Assembly: GCA_016190245.1 (NCBI GenBank)
Contig: JACPQY010000085.1
Coordinates: 62,001 to 126,000, forward strand
Reading direction: 5' to 3'
Source of the DNA: Nitrospirota bacterium
Lineage (GTDB): Bacteria; JACPQY01
Length of the DNA: 64,000 nucleotides
A program made the translations under genes and the position numbers. Of this stretch, positions 52,150-59,405 are shown in pieces (the first letter of the stretch is position 1; every line of letters begins with the position of its first letter). The notes beneath the pieces are model-generated. The model searched no databases and had not been told where the DNA came from. It saw only the letters and a list, made by a program, of their open reading frames with translations.

Positions 52150-52407
52150 TCAGTAGATGTCGCCACGCGGGCCGATCGTCTCTACCAAGACGCAATTCCT
52201 CTCCCCGTCGATCGAGTAGACGACTCGCATGGAACCAACCCCGTAGCGATAGCTCCCCGTCAACTCACCTCGCAGCTTTCGGACATGGGCACCCGCAAAG
52301 GGATCCACCTGAGGTGAAGCGAAGCAACGATCCAACTTCCGGGGTGTCTTGGACGACACCTTTCGGCAGAACTTGAGGGCTTCGTCGGAGAGGCGGACCT
52401 CAAACAC
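52150..52407 (-). CDS. RelE/ParE-family toxin
   Basis: 85 residues with the RelE/ParE pattern 'VRLSDEALKFCRKV...FAGAHVRKLRGELTGSYRYGVGSMRVVYSID...VLVETIGPRGDIY'. Its start overlaps the stop of the upstream small gene by eight bases, the usual antitoxin-toxin order. It would block translation or gyrase when free. Confidence 0.85.
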   Translation of the reverse strand: MFEVRLSDEALKFCRKVSSKTPRKLDRCFASPQVDPFAGAHVRKLRGELTGSYRYGVGSMRVVYSIDGERNCVLVETIGPRGDIY

Positions 52408-52639
52408 GCCGGCGGACGCTTCGCCAGGGCGTGGTCTTTCCTCGACGAACCTGATCGCGACCGCGGCGCCAAGACTTCATGAGCGCGGCGTCGCCGGTCA
52501 GCTCCGATGTGGCTTCCCATTCCTCCTTCTCACGGAGGAACCGTAGAAACACCACGGCCTCCTGGAGTCGATCCGACGGCAACGCCTTGAGAAGGTTGAA
52601 CGCCTGGTTTCTCATCCCCACTGGATTATCCTGGTTCAT
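52400..52639 (-). CDS. antitoxin of the RelE/ParE pair
   Basis: 79 residues from the ATG at 52639: a helical N-terminus ('NQAFNLLKALPSDRLQEAVVFLRFLREKEEWEAT') and a basic disordered tail (KSWRRGRDQVRRG). Size, position and overlap with the toxin gene mark it as the antitoxin. I do not recognise its family with confidence. Confidence 0.7.
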   Translation of the reverse strand: MNQDNPVGMRNQAFNLLKALPSDRLQEAVVFLRFLREKEEWEATSELTGDAALMKSWRRGRDQVRRGKTTPWRSVRRRV

Positions 52640-52796
52640 CAACCCCTGCGTTGGCAATTCCAAAGGCCTTGACAGATTTCGACTCCGCGCCTCCAACCGC
52701 ATCCGCGCGGTTCAGACATCCGGCACGGCACGGGATCGGAAGTAGGCCAGGAGTTCCCGCTTGCCGAGGCTTGGGAAACCTGCTCGGCAACAACCC

Positions 52797-53213
52797 TCAG
52801 TCTTTCAGCGCACAGGCAGGAAGGTGTTCTTGGATTTTGTCACGGACACGACGGGCGACTTCAACGGCCCCCTGCGCCTCGTGAAACGGAATCGGTTCCC
52901 ACCCGCCCGGGTAGCGTGCCGAGGTCGCATACTGCGTCAGTCGCCGTCGCTCTTCGGCGCTCAGCGGGACCACCACATCGCCGGGGACGAGCCTCGTGAT
53001 CTGATCCAAATCGTGCGTCTTTGGGAAGTCGATGGCTCTGTGGACAAGCAAGGCCTTCAGATATTTCTCAACGGATTGTTGGGCATGGAAGCACACGGCG
53101 CCTGTTGGACAATCCACATGCTTTTCCAACAGAAAAGCAGCCGCCCGAAGGTCATCCTCCGCAACCTGTACCCATTCGCGAGCCAGCCCCTCGGGTGTAT
53201 CAGCAGCGCTCAT
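52797..53213 (-). CDS. hepT: HEPN-domain protein (HepT-type toxin)
   Basis: 138 residues from the ATG at 53213. 'REWVQVAEDDLRAA', 'CFHAQQSVEKYLKALLV' and 'KTHDLDQI' are typical of the PF05168 HEPN domain. HEPN proteins beside MNT proteins are usually RNases held in check by AMPylation. The start overlaps the end of the nucleotidyltransferase gene by 14 bases. A canonical Rx4-6H motif is not obvious, so catalytic activity is uncertain. Confidence 0.82.
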   Translation of the reverse strand: MSAADTPEGLAREWVQVAEDDLRAAAFLLEKHVDCPTGAVCFHAQQSVEKYLKALLVHRAIDFPKTHDLDQITRLVPGDVVVPLSAEERRRLTQYATSARYPGGWEPIPFHEAQGAVEVARRVRDKIQEHLPACALKD

Positions 53214-53547
53214 AGAGGACGATGCCCTCACGGAGGGCAGGCCGCAGGATAGTGCCGACGAGATTTCCAAATCGGTGCACGTCGTCGGGTGTAAACACGA
53301 TGATATCCTTGGAGACTGGGATGTCGCATAGATCCACCCCGATGCGAACGCTCGCCTCCCTCCTGGACGCTTCCACCGGCATGATGATGAGGAGGTCCAC
53401 GTCGCTGTCCGGCCTCGGGTTCCCCCGGGCGTGCGAACCGAAAAGGACGATTTTCTCCGGGTTGTATTTCTCGACGATAATGGACACCATTTGGCCGATT
53501 TCGCCCCGGAGCCTCGGCGTCGGGCCGGCGGAACGCATGGTGCTCAC
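53200..53547 (-). CDS. mntA: MNT-type nucleotidyltransferase (MntA-like antitoxin)
   Basis: 115 residues with the minimal nucleotidyltransferase motif GSx10DxD complete (Gly37-Ser38 ... Asp49-Val-Asp51 in 'LFGSHARGNPRPDSDVDLLI'). MntA proteins transfer AMP to the HEPN partner and so inactivate it. It forms an overlapping operon with the HEPN gene, 100 bases from the cas9 3' end. Confidence 0.87.
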   Translation of the reverse strand: MSTMRSAGPTPRLRGEIGQMVSIIVEKYNPEKIVLFGSHARGNPRPDSDVDLLIIMPVEASRREASVRIGVDLCDIPVSKDIIVFTPDDVHRFGNLVGTILRPALREGIVLYERC

Positions 53548-53650: not shown

Positions 53651-56491
53651 TCAGGTCGCCGGATCCGGCCGGGAACGAAAATAGGCCAGGAGTTCCCGTT
53701 TGCCGAGGGTGCGCTCCGGCGAAGCCGCTCTCTGCTCCCGGGGAATGCCCTGCCGATCCGCCAAGGCGTCCGGGAGCGCATTCTCAGGGATCACGATCAC
53801 GTTGTCGCGGGACAGCTCCTTGACGCGATAGAAAACTCCATCCAACCGAATCACTTCCCCTCGCTCAATTCGGCCGATCTTCTTTGCTCTCTTCGGCAAA
53901 GGCGGATCGATCATGTCTTGAACGAGTTCCCTGATCGCACGAGGACGCACGCGGGAAAGGCACAGACTCTCCCGCGATCCCCTCACCACGCTCCACAAGA
54001 TAGCTGCTTCCGATTGAATGGGCTTGACTTGGACCTTTCTGACCCCGCTTGTTCCATCGTGATGGGGTACTCGCACCACGAGTCCGCCCTTCTGACTCTT
54101 TGCGGTGTAGCGCCGTTGTCCCGTCGTTGTCGGCTGCGGCAGGGGTTTGTGGACCCAAAGCTTGGGCGTGTCCACGTTGGCGGGCTGCTGAAACAGGCTG
54201 AGATCCATCAGTTGCCTTCGCCATGTCGCCTTCAGCTTTCCGAGTTCCCGCACAATGGGAACGGCTCGCCGTCTCAGGAATCCGGCCCAGTCCGGCGCAA
54301 GTGCCAACAGCGCGACTCCCGGCCGTGGTCGCAACTCATGTTCAAACGAACCATTCTCCAGAACCACCAAGGCTCCTTTTTCATCCTTCTTGACGCAGGG
54401 GCGAACGGCGGTCTCGCACAGTATGCGAGGTCGCCAGGTGTGCGGCGGCGTGGCGGCGAGCAGGGCGGCGTCCTGCGCATGATTGAACAAATCCGTACGA
54501 TCCTTCCTTGGGAAGTTCTCCTGTCGAGCCTCGCGGTCGTGGAAGAGCCAAGACATGCGGAGGTCGCGGGTCCATCGACCGGAAACCACCTGGAGGTGCG
54601 GTTTCCCGAGGATATACGCCGGGGACGGCGGTTCGACTCCATACGTCTTGAAAAGTTCGGCGATTTCCGCAGCAAACGCTCCGCTTCGGGCGGCGACCCG
54701 CGCCAAGGGAGTCGGGTCGTCCGGGTAGTTCGCGCCCGCCGGGAGCAGAAGAAGCATGCGCTTGAAGTCGGGCATGTTGATTCGCCTGACTCTTTCTTCA
54801 AAACGTAGCCATTCCTCCTCCTTCTTCCACTCGCTCGGCAGTCTGTTGCCTTTCCCCGTGTCGGGATGATTGCATGTGTGGCAGGCAGCCACGCGATTGA
54901 GTTGGAGGTCGGGACCACCGCGTGCCCTCGGCACGATGTGGTCCATCTCCGTTGCCTCCACCGGGATCTCCTTCCCGCAATACATGCAAGTCCCGCCTGA
55001 TTCGCCGTGCAGTCTCTCCCGGATGGACAGGGTCTTCCGCTCAGTTTGCTTCCCCTTCCCCACCCGCTCCGTCTGAGGGTCGGGAATCTCCAAGGTAAGA
55101 AGGGCCACCGGACCATGTCGCCACGCTACCTGACCCTTCTTCCCTCGAATGAACAAGATCTCCTCCAGTCTCCTCAACACGCGCTGATCATGCTGCTCCC
55201 GACGCGGATTCGGGGCGTGGCGGCCCCGCATCTGTTGCCAGGCCAGCCCTGCATCCATCATGCTTCCGCCACCAGCGGCCAGATCGAGATGTTGCATGCA
55301 CAACTTGGCACGGCCTCGGCGAGGAGTACGATTCAGAAGATCGTTCAACTGCGGAAGCATCGGGTGGTCGAGGTTCCATTGCCCCTTGGAGTTCTTCATC
55401 CATCTCCTCGGCGATTCGATGGAATCCAGGTACTTGCTGATGTTGTCCTCCGACGGGGCGCGTTCGGTCACGGGGACCTTCGGACCTTTCGGGAAATCAG
55501 ATCCGCTCGCCCGTTTTTCCCACCAATCAAGCAATGGCTTCCGCTCCTCATTCGACAGGGAGCGAAACTCCCTCGCACCTGTCCATTTTGGGACACGCAG
55601 ATTACCGACGGCCGCGCGGAATGCCTTGAATCGGACCTCGGGTTTCTTGAGTCTTGGCGTCTTCTTCCCGCACCACGAGCAACCCGACCTCAATCGATTG
55701 TCGAATCGGGCGGGGCGTAAAACTCTGTTCAGAAGACCGACCAATTCCTTGCACCACCGCTCGATAACCATTGGCTCCATCCGGTGTTTTTCGCCGAACC
55801 GTTGCACGATCACTCGAACAGCGTTTTCCTTGATCTGCCGGGGAACCGCTTTACGCGGTTCGGGTGGCCTGTTCAGCGAGTTCTCATAGGCAGCCGTCAG
55901 CTTCGGTCTGGCGCGACGCTCGACCTCGGCCCTGAGTTGCTCCGCCATCGTGCCGGCCTCTCTCAGGATGCAGCAGGATTCGAGAAAGTCGTGGAGCCGC
56001 GCATCGGGCAGATCCTCGAAATCCTTGTCGTCATACCTGTAGCCGCGTTTCTTGAAGATCAGCGTTATCGCTCGAACAAAACCACGGGCATCGAGACCAT
56101 CCTTCTGCGCCACTTCAATCCAACCCGGACCGCCGCAGGGGTCGGCCCCTTTCGTTTCGTAAGTGCCCGGTTTCGGCCAGAATCTCTTGTCGGCCAGTAC
56201 GTCATAGGGGTCCGGAAGCCGCTCTCCGTTCGGAAGCTTCTGTCTCAGAACCCATGACCGAAGGCGCGCGAGTCGCATTTTCTTGGCGTGGCGGGTCCTC
56301 CTCCCCCTTCGCAGGATCCGGCGCTGTTCAAGTGTGGCATCGTGAAAATCCACATACGTTTCGGCATGAAGGATTTCGCGATTCCTGACAACGGCGATGC
56401 CGCCCGCGGCCTCACCGAGATCAACACCCACCCGCACAGAATTCAGAAAACTGTCAACACGCGATGCCAAGTCGGGAGGAACGCCATTCAT
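53651..56491 (-). CDS. cas9: compact Cas9 nuclease (type II-C2/II-D-like)
   Basis: 946 residues. RuvC-I is 'RVGVDLGEAAGG' (Asp24). An Arg-rich bridge helix spans about 56-79. A CxxC knuckle (Cys271, Cys274) lies in the recognition region. RuvC-II is 'LLTLEIP' (Glu468). The HNH domain has Asp517-His518 and Asn532 and is flanked by CMYC (Cys502, Cys505) and CHTC (Cys537, Cys540), a zinc ribbon. RuvC-III is 'FNHAQDAALLA' (His671, Asp674). All expected nuclease residues are present. The C-terminal 250 residues would form the WED and PAM-interacting region. Size and Cas4 linkage exclude ordinary II-A and II-B. The gene lies directly downstream of the tracrRNA on the same strand, and no Shine-Dalgarno sequence precedes the ATG. 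Confidence 0.93.
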   Translation of the reverse strand: MNGVPPDLASRVDSFLNSVRVGVDLGEAAGGIAVVRNREILHAETYVDFHDATLEQRRILRRGRRTRHAKKMRLARLRSWVLRQKLPNGERLPDPYDVLADKRFWPKPGTYETKGADPCGGPGWIEVAQKDGLDARGFVRAITLIFKKRGYRYDDKDFEDLPDARLHDFLESCCILREAGTMAEQLRAEVERRARPKLTAAYENSLNRPPEPRKAVPRQIKENAVRVIVQRFGEKHRMEPMVIERWCKELVGLLNRVLRPARFDNRLRSGCSWCGKKTPRLKKPEVRFKAFRAAVGNLRVPKWTGAREFRSLSNEERKPLLDWWEKRASGSDFPKGPKVPVTERAPSEDNISKYLDSIESPRRWMKNSKGQWNLDHPMLPQLNDLLNRTPRRGRAKLCMQHLDLAAGGGSMMDAGLAWQQMRGRHAPNPRREQHDQRVLRRLEEILFIRGKKGQVAWRHGPVALLTLEIPDPQTERVGKGKQTERKTLSIRERLHGESGGTCMYCGKEIPVEATEMDHIVPRARGGPDLQLNRVAACHTCNHPDTGKGNRLPSEWKKEEEWLRFEERVRRINMPDFKRMLLLLPAGANYPDDPTPLARVAARSGAFAAEIAELFKTYGVEPPSPAYILGKPHLQVVSGRWTRDLRMSWLFHDREARQENFPRKDRTDLFNHAQDAALLAATPPHTWRPRILCETAVRPCVKKDEKGALVVLENGSFEHELRPRPGVALLALAPDWAGFLRRRAVPIVRELGKLKATWRRQLMDLSLFQQPANVDTPKLWVHKPLPQPTTTGQRRYTAKSQKGGLVVRVPHHDGTSGVRKVQVKPIQSEAAILWSVVRGSRESLCLSRVRPRAIRELVQDMIDPPLPKRAKKIGRIERGEVIRLDGVFYRVKELSRDNVIVIPENALPDALADRQGIPREQRAASPERTLGKRELLAYFRSRPDPAT

Positions 56492-56499
56492 GGTTCATC

Positions 56500-56668
56500 A
56501 TGAGGAGAGAGAAAGAGGCGGCTGGGCTCGGCAGCCGCCCGGGAGTCCTTGCCCTTCCGCAGAGCCGGCCTTGCGGTGGCGGGGCCAGGCATTGGGGAGA
56601 GCGGGTAGCTGGACTCTGTCATCCGGTCCCGTGTCCTGGCGCCTGGGCTTCTTTCATTCTGGAAGCAC
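56500..56668 (-). ncRNA. predicted tracrRNA
   Basis: The minus strand of 56651-56668 pairs with the 5' end of the minus-strand CRISPR repeat. The plus strand here reads CTTTCATTCT-GGAAGCA, and the repeat complement reads CTTTCATTCTCGGAAGCA, giving 17 pairs with one bulged base, extended by G-U pairs. Downstream in the RNA are a CCGCA/TGCGG stem and a final GGCGGCT...AGCCGCC hairpin (56539-56517), followed by a TCTTTCTCTC tract that ends nine bases before cas9. A consensus -35 TTGACA (56701-56696) with a weak -10 (TGAAGT) would start the RNA near 56666. Confidence 0.8.
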
Positions 56669-56694
56669 CTCTACTTCAGCACCGGAATACTGGC

Positions 56695-56723
56695 TTGTCA
56701 AGTACTACATACCTGTGTATGCT
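56695..56723 (+). promoter_or_regulatory. cas1-cas2-cas4 promoter overlapping the divergent tracrRNA -35
   Basis: TTGTCA (56695-56700), 17 bases, TATGCT (56718-56723) on the plus strand. The same bases read on the minus strand give TTGACA (56701-56696), so the two -35 boxes overlap by five bases. Confidence 0.6.
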
Positions 56724-56812
56724 ATACGAACGGGGGAGGGAGGCGACATGGAGGCGGGCTCATCGCGTGCGACTGGGCAGCCCCTTTTGGGATAGGGAAT
56801 AGGAGGGAACGT

Positions 56813-57919
56813 ATGGAACAGGTGATCGTGGATCAATTCGGGGCCTATCTGTCCAAGAAGAGCGAAAGGCTCGTGGTGAAGGCGCCGAGAGCGCCGGAAC
56901 TGCGGCCCGCGGATGGGATTCAGCTTCTGCTCCCGTTCCCCGACCCGCCGGATGCCGGCGAGGCCAGACCGGCGCCCCTTCGGAAGGGAACGATTCTGGC
57001 CGAGATTCCATTTTTCCGAATCTGCGAGATCCTCGTGACCTCCAGGGGGGTGTCGCTCTCGACCGACCTGATCGAGGAGTGTTGCCGGAGGGGGATTCGG
57101 ATCACACTACTGGCGGGGAGCCGACCCTTCGCCATGCTCTCCTCGCCGATGCTGACCGCCACGGTGCAAACGCGCCGCGAACAGATGCAGGCGTATCTGG
57201 ACGAACGCGGGTTCGAACTGGCGCGCGCGTTCTGCGCGGGCAAGGTCCGCAACCAGATCCGCCTTCTCCGTTACTACGGCAAGTATCTCAAGGAGGCTCA
57301 CCCCGATCGGTACGAGCAGGTAGCGTCCGGCACGGGGGCGATTGAGGCCATCGAAGGGAAACTCCGCGAAGTGCAGGCGGCGGACATTGATTCGGCGCGC
57401 GAGGTCCTCATGGGTCTGGAGGGCACGGCGGCGCGTGTCTACTGGTCGGGCATTCGATGCCTCTTGGAAGGCCACATCGAGTTCTCCGGGCGCGAGCATC
57501 GGGGGGCCGCCGACCCCGTGAACGCTTCGCTCAATTACGGCTACGGGATTCTCTACTCCGTCGTGTGGGGCGCCATCCTGAACGCCGGGCTCGAGCCGTT
57601 CGCCGGCTTCCTGCACGTGGACCGGCCGGGGAAGCCGTCGCTCGTCCTCGACATGACCGAGGAGTTCCGTGCCCCGGTGGTGGATCGGGCCGTGGTCGGC
57701 CTGTTCACGAGAGACCAGAAGGTGGGGATGGCAGAGGGCCTCCTTGATGCGGAAAGCCGGAAGCTCATTGCCGATCGCGTGAAGGACCGGCTCTCGGCCC
57801 CGGAACCATATCGGGGGGCGAAGTACCAAGTGCGCTCGATCATCCAGGCGCAGGCGCGCCGCGTGGCCGTGGCCGTCCGGCGAGAGGGGCGATACGAGCC
57901 CTTCGGATTCACCTGGTAG
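56813..57919 (+). CDS. cas1: CRISPR integrase Cas1
   Basis: 368 residues. The catalytic set is visible: Glu in 'GLEGTAARVYW', His in 'GFLHVDRPGKPSLVLD' and Asp/Glu in 'LDMTEEFR'. The start 'MEQVIVDQFGAYLSKKSERLVV' is typical of Cas1 proteins that work with Cas4 in type I systems rather than of II-A or II-C Cas1. It joins new spacers to the array. GGGAGGG-type sequence and a promoter precede it. Confidence 0.94.
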   Translation: MEQVIVDQFGAYLSKKSERLVVKAPRAPELRPADGIQLLLPFPDPPDAGEARPAPLRKGTILAEIPFFRICEILVTSRGVSLSTDLIEECCRRGIRITLLAGSRPFAMLSSPMLTATVQTRREQMQAYLDERGFELARAFCAGKVRNQIRLLRYYGKYLKEAHPDRYEQVASGTGAIEAIEGKLREVQAADIDSAREVLMGLEGTAARVYWSGIRCLLEGHIEFSGREHRGAADPVNASLNYGYGILYSVVWGAILNAGLEPFAGFLHVDRPGKPSLVLDMTEEFRAPVVDRAVVGLFTRDQKVGMAEGLLDAESRKLIADRVKDRLSAPEPYRGAKYQVRSIIQAQARRVAVAVRREGRYEPFGFTW

Positions 57920-57924
57920 GGGCG

Positions 57925-58221
57925 ATGGACGAGATCCTCACGCTGGCCGTGTACGACATCGAGCAGGACCGCATCCGCGCGAAGATCGCCGATATCTGCA
58001 AGGACTACGGCCTCGAGCGGATCCAGTTCAGCGCGTTCATGGGCCGTCTCTCCCGAAACCGCCGGGAGGAGCTGTTTCTCAAACTCACCGGGAGACTTGG
58101 GGACACGCCCGGTCAAATCCTCGTCGTGCCCATCTGCGAGAAAGACGCCCGGGCCGTCCAGGAGAAGACGGTCCCACCCGCGCGCGAGGCACACGGCGCC
58201 GAGGAGACCTCGGCACCATGA
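57925..58221 (+). CDS. cas2: CRISPR adaptation protein Cas2
   Basis: 98 residues with the ferredoxin-like Cas2 start 'LTLAVYDIEQDRIRAKIADICKDYGLERIQFSAFMG'. It bridges two Cas1 dimers in the integration complex. It starts five bases after cas1, and its stop overlaps cas4 (ATGA). Confidence 0.94.
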   Translation: MDEILTLAVYDIEQDRIRAKIADICKDYGLERIQFSAFMGRLSRNRREELFLKLTGRLGDTPGQILVVPICEKDARAVQEKTVPPAREAHGAEETSAP

Positions 58222-58790
58222 TCCTCCGCGTGGCGGACCTCAGGCAGTACGCGTACTGTCCACGCGTCGTCTACTTCACGTACGTCCAACCCCTCGATCG
58301 GCAGCCCACGTACAAAATGAAGGAGGGGAACTCCGCCGAGTCCAAGACCATACCCACGGAAAGACGGCGAACGCTCGCCCGCTACGAATTGCCCCAAGGC
58401 GTTCGAACATTCGGCGTATCGCTCTCCTCCCCAAGAATCGGACTGAGCGGAAAACTCGATCTCCTGATCGAAGCCGAGGGAAGGTACTATCCCGTGGAGT
58501 TCAAGACCACCCGTCCCAGTGTTTTTCCCAACATGCGATGCCAGCTCGCGGGCTACGCCCTGTTGGTCGAGGAACGATCCGGTACACCGGTGGAGAGCGG
58601 ATTCATCCAGTTTCTTCCTTCCGGCCGAACCTTCCCGGTGGATCTCCCGAGCACGCTCAAGGCCGAGACGCGCGGACTCGTTGAGACCATGCGCCGGATG
58701 ATCGAACGGGAGGAGATGCCGGAGCCCACGCCACGGCAGCAGCGGTGCGCGGACTGCGAATATCGAAACTTCTGCGGGGATGTTTCGTGA
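58218..58790 (+). CDS. cas4: CRISPR adaptation exonuclease Cas4
   Basis: 190 residues. The iron-sulfur ligands are 'YAYCPR' near the N-terminus and 'CADCEYRNFC' at the C-terminus. The RecB-type nuclease residues are in 'GLSGKLDLLIEAEG' and 'YYPVEFKT' (D...E-K). Cas4 trims prespacers and selects those next to a PAM. It is translationally coupled to cas2 and lies 109 bases from the array. Confidence 0.93.
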   Translation: MILRVADLRQYAYCPRVVYFTYVQPLDRQPTYKMKEGNSAESKTIPTERRRTLARYELPQGVRTFGVSLSSPRIGLSGKLDLLIEAEGRYYPVEFKTTRPSVFPNMRCQLAGYALLVEERSGTPVESGFIQFLPSGRTFPVDLPSTLKAETRGLVETMRRMIEREEMPEPTPRQQRCADCEYRNFCGDVS

Positions 58791-58899
58791 CGCCGGGCGT
58801 TTCGAAAATCCCCCGCCTTTTCCGGCGGGCTAGGCGTTTTCGAGGTCGTCTGGCTGTAGAAGCCGAAAATCGGCTGAAAGGGCGGGCACATGGCCCGCC
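58791..58899. promoter_or_regulatory. cas4-side flank of the array (leader candidate) with three hairpins
   Basis: CCCGCC-tttt-cc-GGCGGG (about 58804-58830), AGCCGA-aaa-TCGGCT (58861-58875), and CTGAAAGGGCGGGC / GCCCGCCCTTTCAG (58874-58887 with 58893-58906). The last one takes in the first seven bases of repeat 1. Confidence 0.6.
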
Positions 58900-59405
58900 C
58901 TTTCAGAGGCTACCAAGATGCTTCCGAGAATGAAAGACTCGGTCACGCGGGCCTCTAGGGCGGCGCGGTCGGCTTTCAGAGGCTACCAAGATGCTTCCGA
59001 GAATGAAAGTCCTAAATGGAGGGCGTCCCGTTTCCGGGCGGTTTCTTTCAGAGGCTACCAAGATGCTTCCGAGAATGAAAGCCTCCTCAATGTCCTGCGT
59101 AAACGCGTCGCTCAGTCCTTTCAGAGGCTACCAAGATGCTTCCGAGAATGAAAGGTTGCTATCCGGGGCTCGGCGGCGATTGCGGATCGGGACTTTCAGA
59201 GGCTACCAAGATGCTTCCGAGAATGAAAGATGCCCGTGCTGTCGGCGGGTACTAGAGAGCCACGACTTTCAGAGGCTACCAAGATGCTTCCGAGAATGAA
59301 AGGGCTGCTGCCGTGCCTCCGGGAGCGGCTGTTACTGTACAGTGGACGGCCGTCCACTGTACAGTATGAGCTTGTGGGCGCCCGAACCGCTTCCCGGAAT
59401 GAAAC
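58900..59405 (-). CRISPR. CRISPR array, six identical 37-bp repeats plus one degenerate
   Basis: Identical repeats start at 58900, 58973, 59045, 59118, 59193 and 59266; each begins CTTTCAGAGGCTACC and ends CCGAGAATGAAAG. Spacers are 36, 35, 36, 38 and 36 bp. A degenerate repeat at 59369-59405 keeps only the right half (CGCTTCC-GGAATGAAA). Repeat ends form the inverted pair CTTTCA/TGAAAG. The strand given is the inferred crRNA strand: the anti-repeat pairs with the 5' end of the minus-strand repeat. Decay of the last repeat on the right puts the old end of the array there and the integration end beside cas4. Confidence 0.95.
59333..59366. repeat. 34-bp perfect palindrome before the degenerate repeat
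   Basis: TACTGTACAGTGGACGG is followed at once by its exact reverse complement. The nested palindrome ACTGTACAGT occurs in each arm. It lies in the 66-bp gap between the last good repeat and the degenerate one. No T-run follows on either strand. Confidence 0.9.

Follow-up and report, generated by a model that had tools for sequence, protein, structure and literature searches.

The systems closest to the locus described here have recently been regrouped, as the 2025 classification of clustered regularly interspaced short palindromic repeats (CRISPR) systems merges the former II-C2 and the small II-D systems into one subtype II-D, for which it lists a deep-branching Cas9d, a cas1-cas2-cas4 module, a monophyletic Cas1, and a trans-activating CRISPR RNA (tracrRNA) (PMC12669027). 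Accounts of the adaptation genes differ: Goltsman et al. 2022 reported csn2, cas1, cas2, and/or cas4 in few cases only (PMC9755519), and II-D has been said to have no cas1, cas2, or cas4 (PMC11706934). The window analyzed here, a 64,000-nucleotide stretch of a Nitrospirota contig, contains what is very probably a complete subtype II-D CRISPR-Cas locus, bacterial and serving DNA-targeting adaptive immunity. It shares with subtype II-D a deep-branching Cas9d, cas1-cas2-cas4, and a predicted tracrRNA, its Cas1 probably clusters with those of other II-D loci, and we found no defining difference; the window locus is bacterial, and its cas9 is divergent from the adaptation operon. As the features listed in PMC12669027 already include cas1-cas2-cas4, the monophyletic Cas1, and the tracrRNA, the locus is a new bacterial example of an established subtype whose combination of Cas9 with this operon has been described before. 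The protein-coding genes are as follows.

53651-56491, minus strand: cas9 (Cas9d, subtype II-D), 946 aa, assigned by NCBIfam NF049971, invariant RuvC/HNH residues, and tree placement
56813-57919, plus strand: cas1, 368 aa, with type I kinship, assigned by TIGR00287, trees, and topology tests
57925-58221, plus strand: cas2, 98 aa, with PF09827 and TIGR01573 above their cut-offs
58218-58790, plus strand: cas4, 190 aa, with C14, C-terminal cysteines, and an EFK motif, and with PF01930 and TIGR00372 above their cut-offs

The gene content and catalytic residues were observed directly, and the 946-residue Cas9 with full RuvC and HNH residues and the divergent cas1-cas2-cas4 with an array, which a sequence-only reading of this DNA had reported, were all recovered in place, the genes by Pfam and NCBIfam profiles. 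NF049971 (Cas9d) matched Cas9 at 702 bits (cut-off 375, E = 2e-210), TIGR00287 matched Cas1 at 238 bits (cut-off 71.7, E = 1e-70), and TIGR00372 matched Cas4 at 120 bits (cut-off 65, E = 9e-35), E-values that exclude chance for these identities; the Cas2 profile match scored 50 bits (cut-off 24.5). The catalytic residues of Cas9 are D24 (RuvC-I), E468 (RuvC-II), D517/H518 and N541 (HNH), and H671/D674 (RuvC-III), and D24, E468, H518, N541, H671, and D674 are invariant across alignments of its relatives. With these residues present, RNA-guided double-strand DNA cleavage by this protein is predicted. Membership of IscB or OMEGA (obligate mobile element-guided activity) systems is not indicated, with NF040563 at 51.5 bits against a cut-off of 175 and an array present, nor is II-B, whose Cas9s are well over 1000 aa.

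Relatives were searched for in 386 genomes sampled across the domain, in the phyla to which named relatives belong, and in GTDB contigs. The search yielded five further Cas9d loci with cas1, cas2, and cas4 (L052, L053, L134, L135, and L136), so that the claim in PMC11706934 of II-D systems devoid of these genes is contradicted, because these loci carry them. L052, found a second time as L071, belongs to Candidatus Lindowbacteria, L134 (G844) came from the Micrarchaeota-side search, and L136 has, beside the same adaptation module, a Cas9 that matches the solved chain 9k32 almost exactly (1649 bits). On the short contig of L072, from Nitrospirae J017, cas1, cas2, and cas4 are not visible. No close Cas9 relatives were detected in viral contigs, and plasmids and phages gave IscB- or HNH-level matches only. 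A Micrarchaeota contig (L078) considered as an archaeal II-C2 reference was rejected, its Cas9 and Cas1 being ordinary II-C; this contig (5 kb, 1.4x coverage) may be contamination.

A profile match to NF049971 is by itself insufficient for assignment to II-D, because its top scores (up to 1112 bits) belong to Verrucomicrobial Cas9s (L128, L130, L131, L132, and L133) that have a II-C-type Cas1 and cluster with ordinary type II Cas9s, outside II-D. The assignment rests on the profile together with a Cas9 tree, in which IscB served as outgroup, ARMAN (archaeal Richmond Mine acidophilic nanoorganism), MG33, and II-B-specific references were absent, and large Cas9s were untyped as to II-A or II-B. 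In this tree the window Cas9 pairs with that of L135 (support 97/97), is joined by L052, L072, and L134 (100/97) and then by L053 (96/94), and both this clade and L136 fall outside the remaining sampled Cas9s, which are united in a single group (100/99); a quick tree likewise placed the window Cas9 with Cas9d proteins, apart from the rest. Forcing the window Cas9 among ordinary type II Cas9s cost 128 log units and was rejected in the approximately unbiased (AU) test (p = 3e-6). The II-C2/II-D-like placement proposed from sequence is thus borne out, and the choice between the two labels is settled by their merger in PMC12669027.

In a Cas1 tree made without ARMAN and MG33 references, the window Cas1 falls in a 12-row clade (96/87) of II-D Cas1s, an orphan Cas1 (L179), and type I Cas1s, as had been expected for a Cas1 resembling those of type I systems. 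The type I members come from L180 and L181, with a Cas7 of the Csa2 family, from L182, with an I-B Cas7 and Cas8b1, and from an I-D-like locus of a Rubrobacter plasmid (L197/L209); a further member, L183, has a Cas6 and no typed effector. Type II-C Cas1s form a separate group (100/100), and nesting of the window Cas1 within it was rejected (AU p = 1e-22), which together with the Cas9 test sets the locus apart from II-C (II-C1). Attaching the window Cas1 basally to the type II branch, which is not a test of II-C nesting, was not rejected (p = 0.17). The II-D Cas1s, together with that of L179, which has no visible effector, form one clade in both trees, with support of 97 in the quick tree and 64/93 in the careful one. 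Judged from sequence, the spacer-capture genes are of type I ancestry. The nearest Cas1s outside II-D are those of the I-A-like L180/L181, I-B L182, and I-D-like plasmid modules, which, unlike the window module, serve Cascade-type effectors without Cas9 or tracrRNA. The orphan contig itself (L179, 1-4587) carries a II-D-type cas1-cas2-cas4 with a Cas1 54% identical to the window's and adjoining PIN-like and MNT genes, and no effector is visible before the contig end is reached.

The RNA elements of the locus lie in the 321-nt gap between cas9 and cas1 and beyond cas4.

56507-56675, minus strand: predicted tracrRNA, directed toward cas9 and ending just before it, with putative ends, recognized by anti-repeat, conserved box, and cognate matching
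56651-56670, minus strand: anti-repeat AGGTGCTTCCAGAATGAAAG, a 20-nt match to the 3' part of the repeat with one gap and one mismatch
56639-56655, minus strand: conserved tracrRNA box GAAAGAAGCCCAGGCGC, of the form GAAAGAAGCYC, found upstream of cas9 in six II-D loci
56516-56540, minus strand: terminator-like hairpin followed by a T-rich tail, directly before cas9
58791-58899, plus strand: putative leader, 109 nt, from cas4 to the first repeat, by position only
58900-59302, minus strand: CRISPR array of six 37-nt repeats and five spacers, with CRISPR RNA (crRNA) predicted on the minus strand
59369-59405, minus strand: degenerate terminal repeat, 21/37 matches, 3' half conserved

The anti-repeat score was equalled by none of 2000 shuffles of the cas9-cas1 intergenic region, and the duplex of anti-repeat and repeat has an energy of about -31 kcal/mol. 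On the minus strand the anti-repeat is followed by GAAAGAAGCCCAGGCGC, then by the hairpin at 56540-56516 and cas9, and the order anti-repeat, GAAAGAAGCYC, cas9 was also observed in L052, L053, L072, L134, and L135; the window contains a single match to the box, where 0.03 matches are expected. Repeats vary by locus, and the anti-repeats score 8-11 against their cognate repeats and 3-5 against foreign ones, except in L052 and L053, which have one repeat in common. The box is able to pair with a downstream GGGCAAGG (GRGCAAGG), and in L134 both sides are altered together (GCUC/GAGC), a single case of compensatory change. This co-variation, in cognate anti-repeats and in L134, is what identifies the predicted tracrRNA, by sequence. 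The six tracrRNA sequences align poorly except at the boxes, and a search of Rfam with the tracrRNA returned sub-threshold chance matches only. Pairing with the tracrRNA places the crRNA on the strand opposite to cas1-cas2-cas4. The array lies directly downstream of cas4 in the relatives as well; in the window its six repeats are identical and its spacers measure 35-38 nt. The last full repeat is separated from the degenerate one by a spacer that contains a palindrome around ACTGTACAGTGGACGGCCGTCCACTGTACAGT (59333-59366); similar copies occur at about ten other genomic positions, and it looks like a small dispersed palindromic element.

For this locus we infer transcription, spacer acquisition, RNase III processing, a protospacer adjacent motif, and cleavage along the following lines. 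Cas1-Cas2 would integrate spacers at the cas4-adjacent end of the array, and Cas4 would probably trim and orient the prespacers. Transcription of the array would run the other way, through spacer and then CTTTCATTCTCGGAAGC, yielding predicted crRNAs with CTTTCATTCTCGG on their 3' side. The tracrRNA, directly upstream of cas9 and running toward it, would form ~16-21 bp with the 5' part of the repeat, and the resulting duplex could be cut by the host RNase III, the gene for which was found in the host genome. Cas9d with crRNA:tracrRNA would then cut matching DNA by its HNH and RuvC domains.

Several observations weigh against assignment as a complete and working II-D locus. Support for the II-D Cas1 clade is only 64/93 in the careful tree, an AlphaFold model built from four sequences had a mean predicted local distance difference test score of 50, too poor to be used for any fold search, the array is short, and no protospacers for its five spacers were detected by exact 22-mers in viral contigs. 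The short array and the missing protospacers, along with the past rearrangement indicated by the palindrome within the last spacer and by a downstream copy of the 3' end of cas9, would also fit a decayed or inactive locus, in which the nuclease is intact and spacer acquisition has been lost; we consider this unlikely, as every reading frame and catalytic residue is intact and the six identical repeats argue for recent maintenance. That the cas1-cas2-cas4 operon is instead part of an independent type I system and lies beside a stand-alone Cas9 by chance would agree with the type I loci of its Cas1 relatives and with the divergent orientation of cas9 and cas1, but is highly improbable: the array adjacent to cas4 pairs with the tracrRNA adjacent to cas9, no type I effector genes are seen in the locus, the type I-E locus of the host, on another contig, has its own Cas1e, and the same pairing of Cas9 with these adaptation genes recurs in other phyla. 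An ordinary II-C system with a stray cas4 and a diverged Cas1 can be dismissed almost entirely, since the overlap in size with small II-C Cas9s and a weak cas_Csn1 match (75 bits, below the cut-off of 100) are outweighed by the AU rejection of both placements, under the models and sampling used, and by the recurrence of cas1-cas2-cas4 beside this Cas9 clade in five other loci.

Within subtype II-D, to which we assign the locus, the Cas9 and Cas1 trees conflict. Cas9 pairs the window with L135, whereas Cas1 places L135 with L052 and L053 (100/99); pairing L135 with the window was rejected in the Cas1 tree (p = 0.001), and grouping L135, L052, and L053 was rejected in the Cas9 tree (p = 2e-7), both p-values being optimistic because the clades were picked after the trees were seen. 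L052 and L053, members of one family, have Cas1, Cas2, and Cas4 that are 93%, 93%, and 89% identical, respectively, and an identical repeat, yet their Cas9s share 30% identity over 696 residues. The two loci match at 95% over a 63-bp stretch that includes the promoter region of the tracrRNA and its anti-repeat. This stretch breaks off at GAAAGAAGCCC, and nucleotide similarity resumes only beyond cas9. As promoter, anti-repeat, array, and adaptation genes are shared and the Cas9s are so different, exchange of an effector cassette is suggested, the simplest reading being that cas9 was swapped together with the tracrRNA body and that the breakpoint lies within the tracrRNA. This pattern could also come from misassembly of one metagenome contig, but the conflict between the window and L135 is independent of that pair. 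We give about even chances to the more general proposal that the unit of exchange in II-D is such a cassette, cas9 and tracrRNA body joined at the GAAAGAAGC box, while the tracrRNA promoter and anti-repeat keep their fit to the resident array and its type I-like module, with L052 of Lindowbacteria and its relative L053 a recent case and the window locus an older product. No description of exchange at a tracrRNA joint was found in a limited literature search. The earlier suggestion that the adaptation module had been exchanged is accordingly supported in two senses, through the type I kinship of the module and through the tree conflict within II-D, and the further suggestion of a poorly described branch of type II is not supported, the Cas4-containing module being a shared II-D feature in PMC12669027.

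Directly downstream of cas9 are genes for a HEPN domain protein and an MNT nucleotidyltransferase (52797-53547, minus strand), a probable toxin-antitoxin pair; neither this pair nor the tracrRNA, which flank cas9, had been mentioned in the sequence-only reading. Beyond the pair, positions 52720-52769 repeat the 3' end of cas9 (53659-53708) in degenerate form, at 82% over 50 nt and, for residues 921-944, at 71%, as might follow from insertion of the pair at the cas9 terminus. Further along, at 52150-52702 (minus strand), are an 85-aa protein that is RelE/ParE-like by eye and a 100-aa partner upstream, neither of which matched NCBIfam. L179, the orphan relative, likewise has an MNT gene ahead of its cas1 (1637-1996). 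In L072 (4284-7258), an IscB gene lies <1 kb and a TnpB-family gene ~2.3 kb downstream of the Cas9d gene, which puts this Cas9 close to its presumed ancestor family on a single contig. The host is a bacterium of a sparsely sampled phylum, with 2 genomes only in the set searched, and its type I-E locus (Cse2, Cas7e, and Cas1e; L048, contig C11, 9398-17089) gives it two CRISPR systems.

Compared with described proteins, the window Cas9 has the RuvC-HNH layout of the small Cas9d structures (9k32, 8zq9/9auf, 8w2z, and 9lgi; PMC11706934), which at 736-762 aa are distant from it (32% identity to L136 over 384 aligned residues), and it is likened by description to the former II-C2 or Cas9c2 proteins of ARMAN archaea and the MG33 family (PMC9755519), of 900-1050 aa and with Cas4 in some loci. 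The locus adds a complete bacterial member of II-D that has an effector, a predicted tracrRNA, an array, and adaptation genes including cas4, and with its relatives it bears on the conflict between PMC12669027, which gives II-D cas1-cas2-cas4, and PMC11706934, which does not. Joining at the tracrRNA, if true, would explain how Cas9 can be swapped while compatibility with the array stays. As the II-D Cas9s branch deepest in the rooted Cas9 tree, they are informative on how an IscB-like nuclease became the effector of an adaptive immune system.

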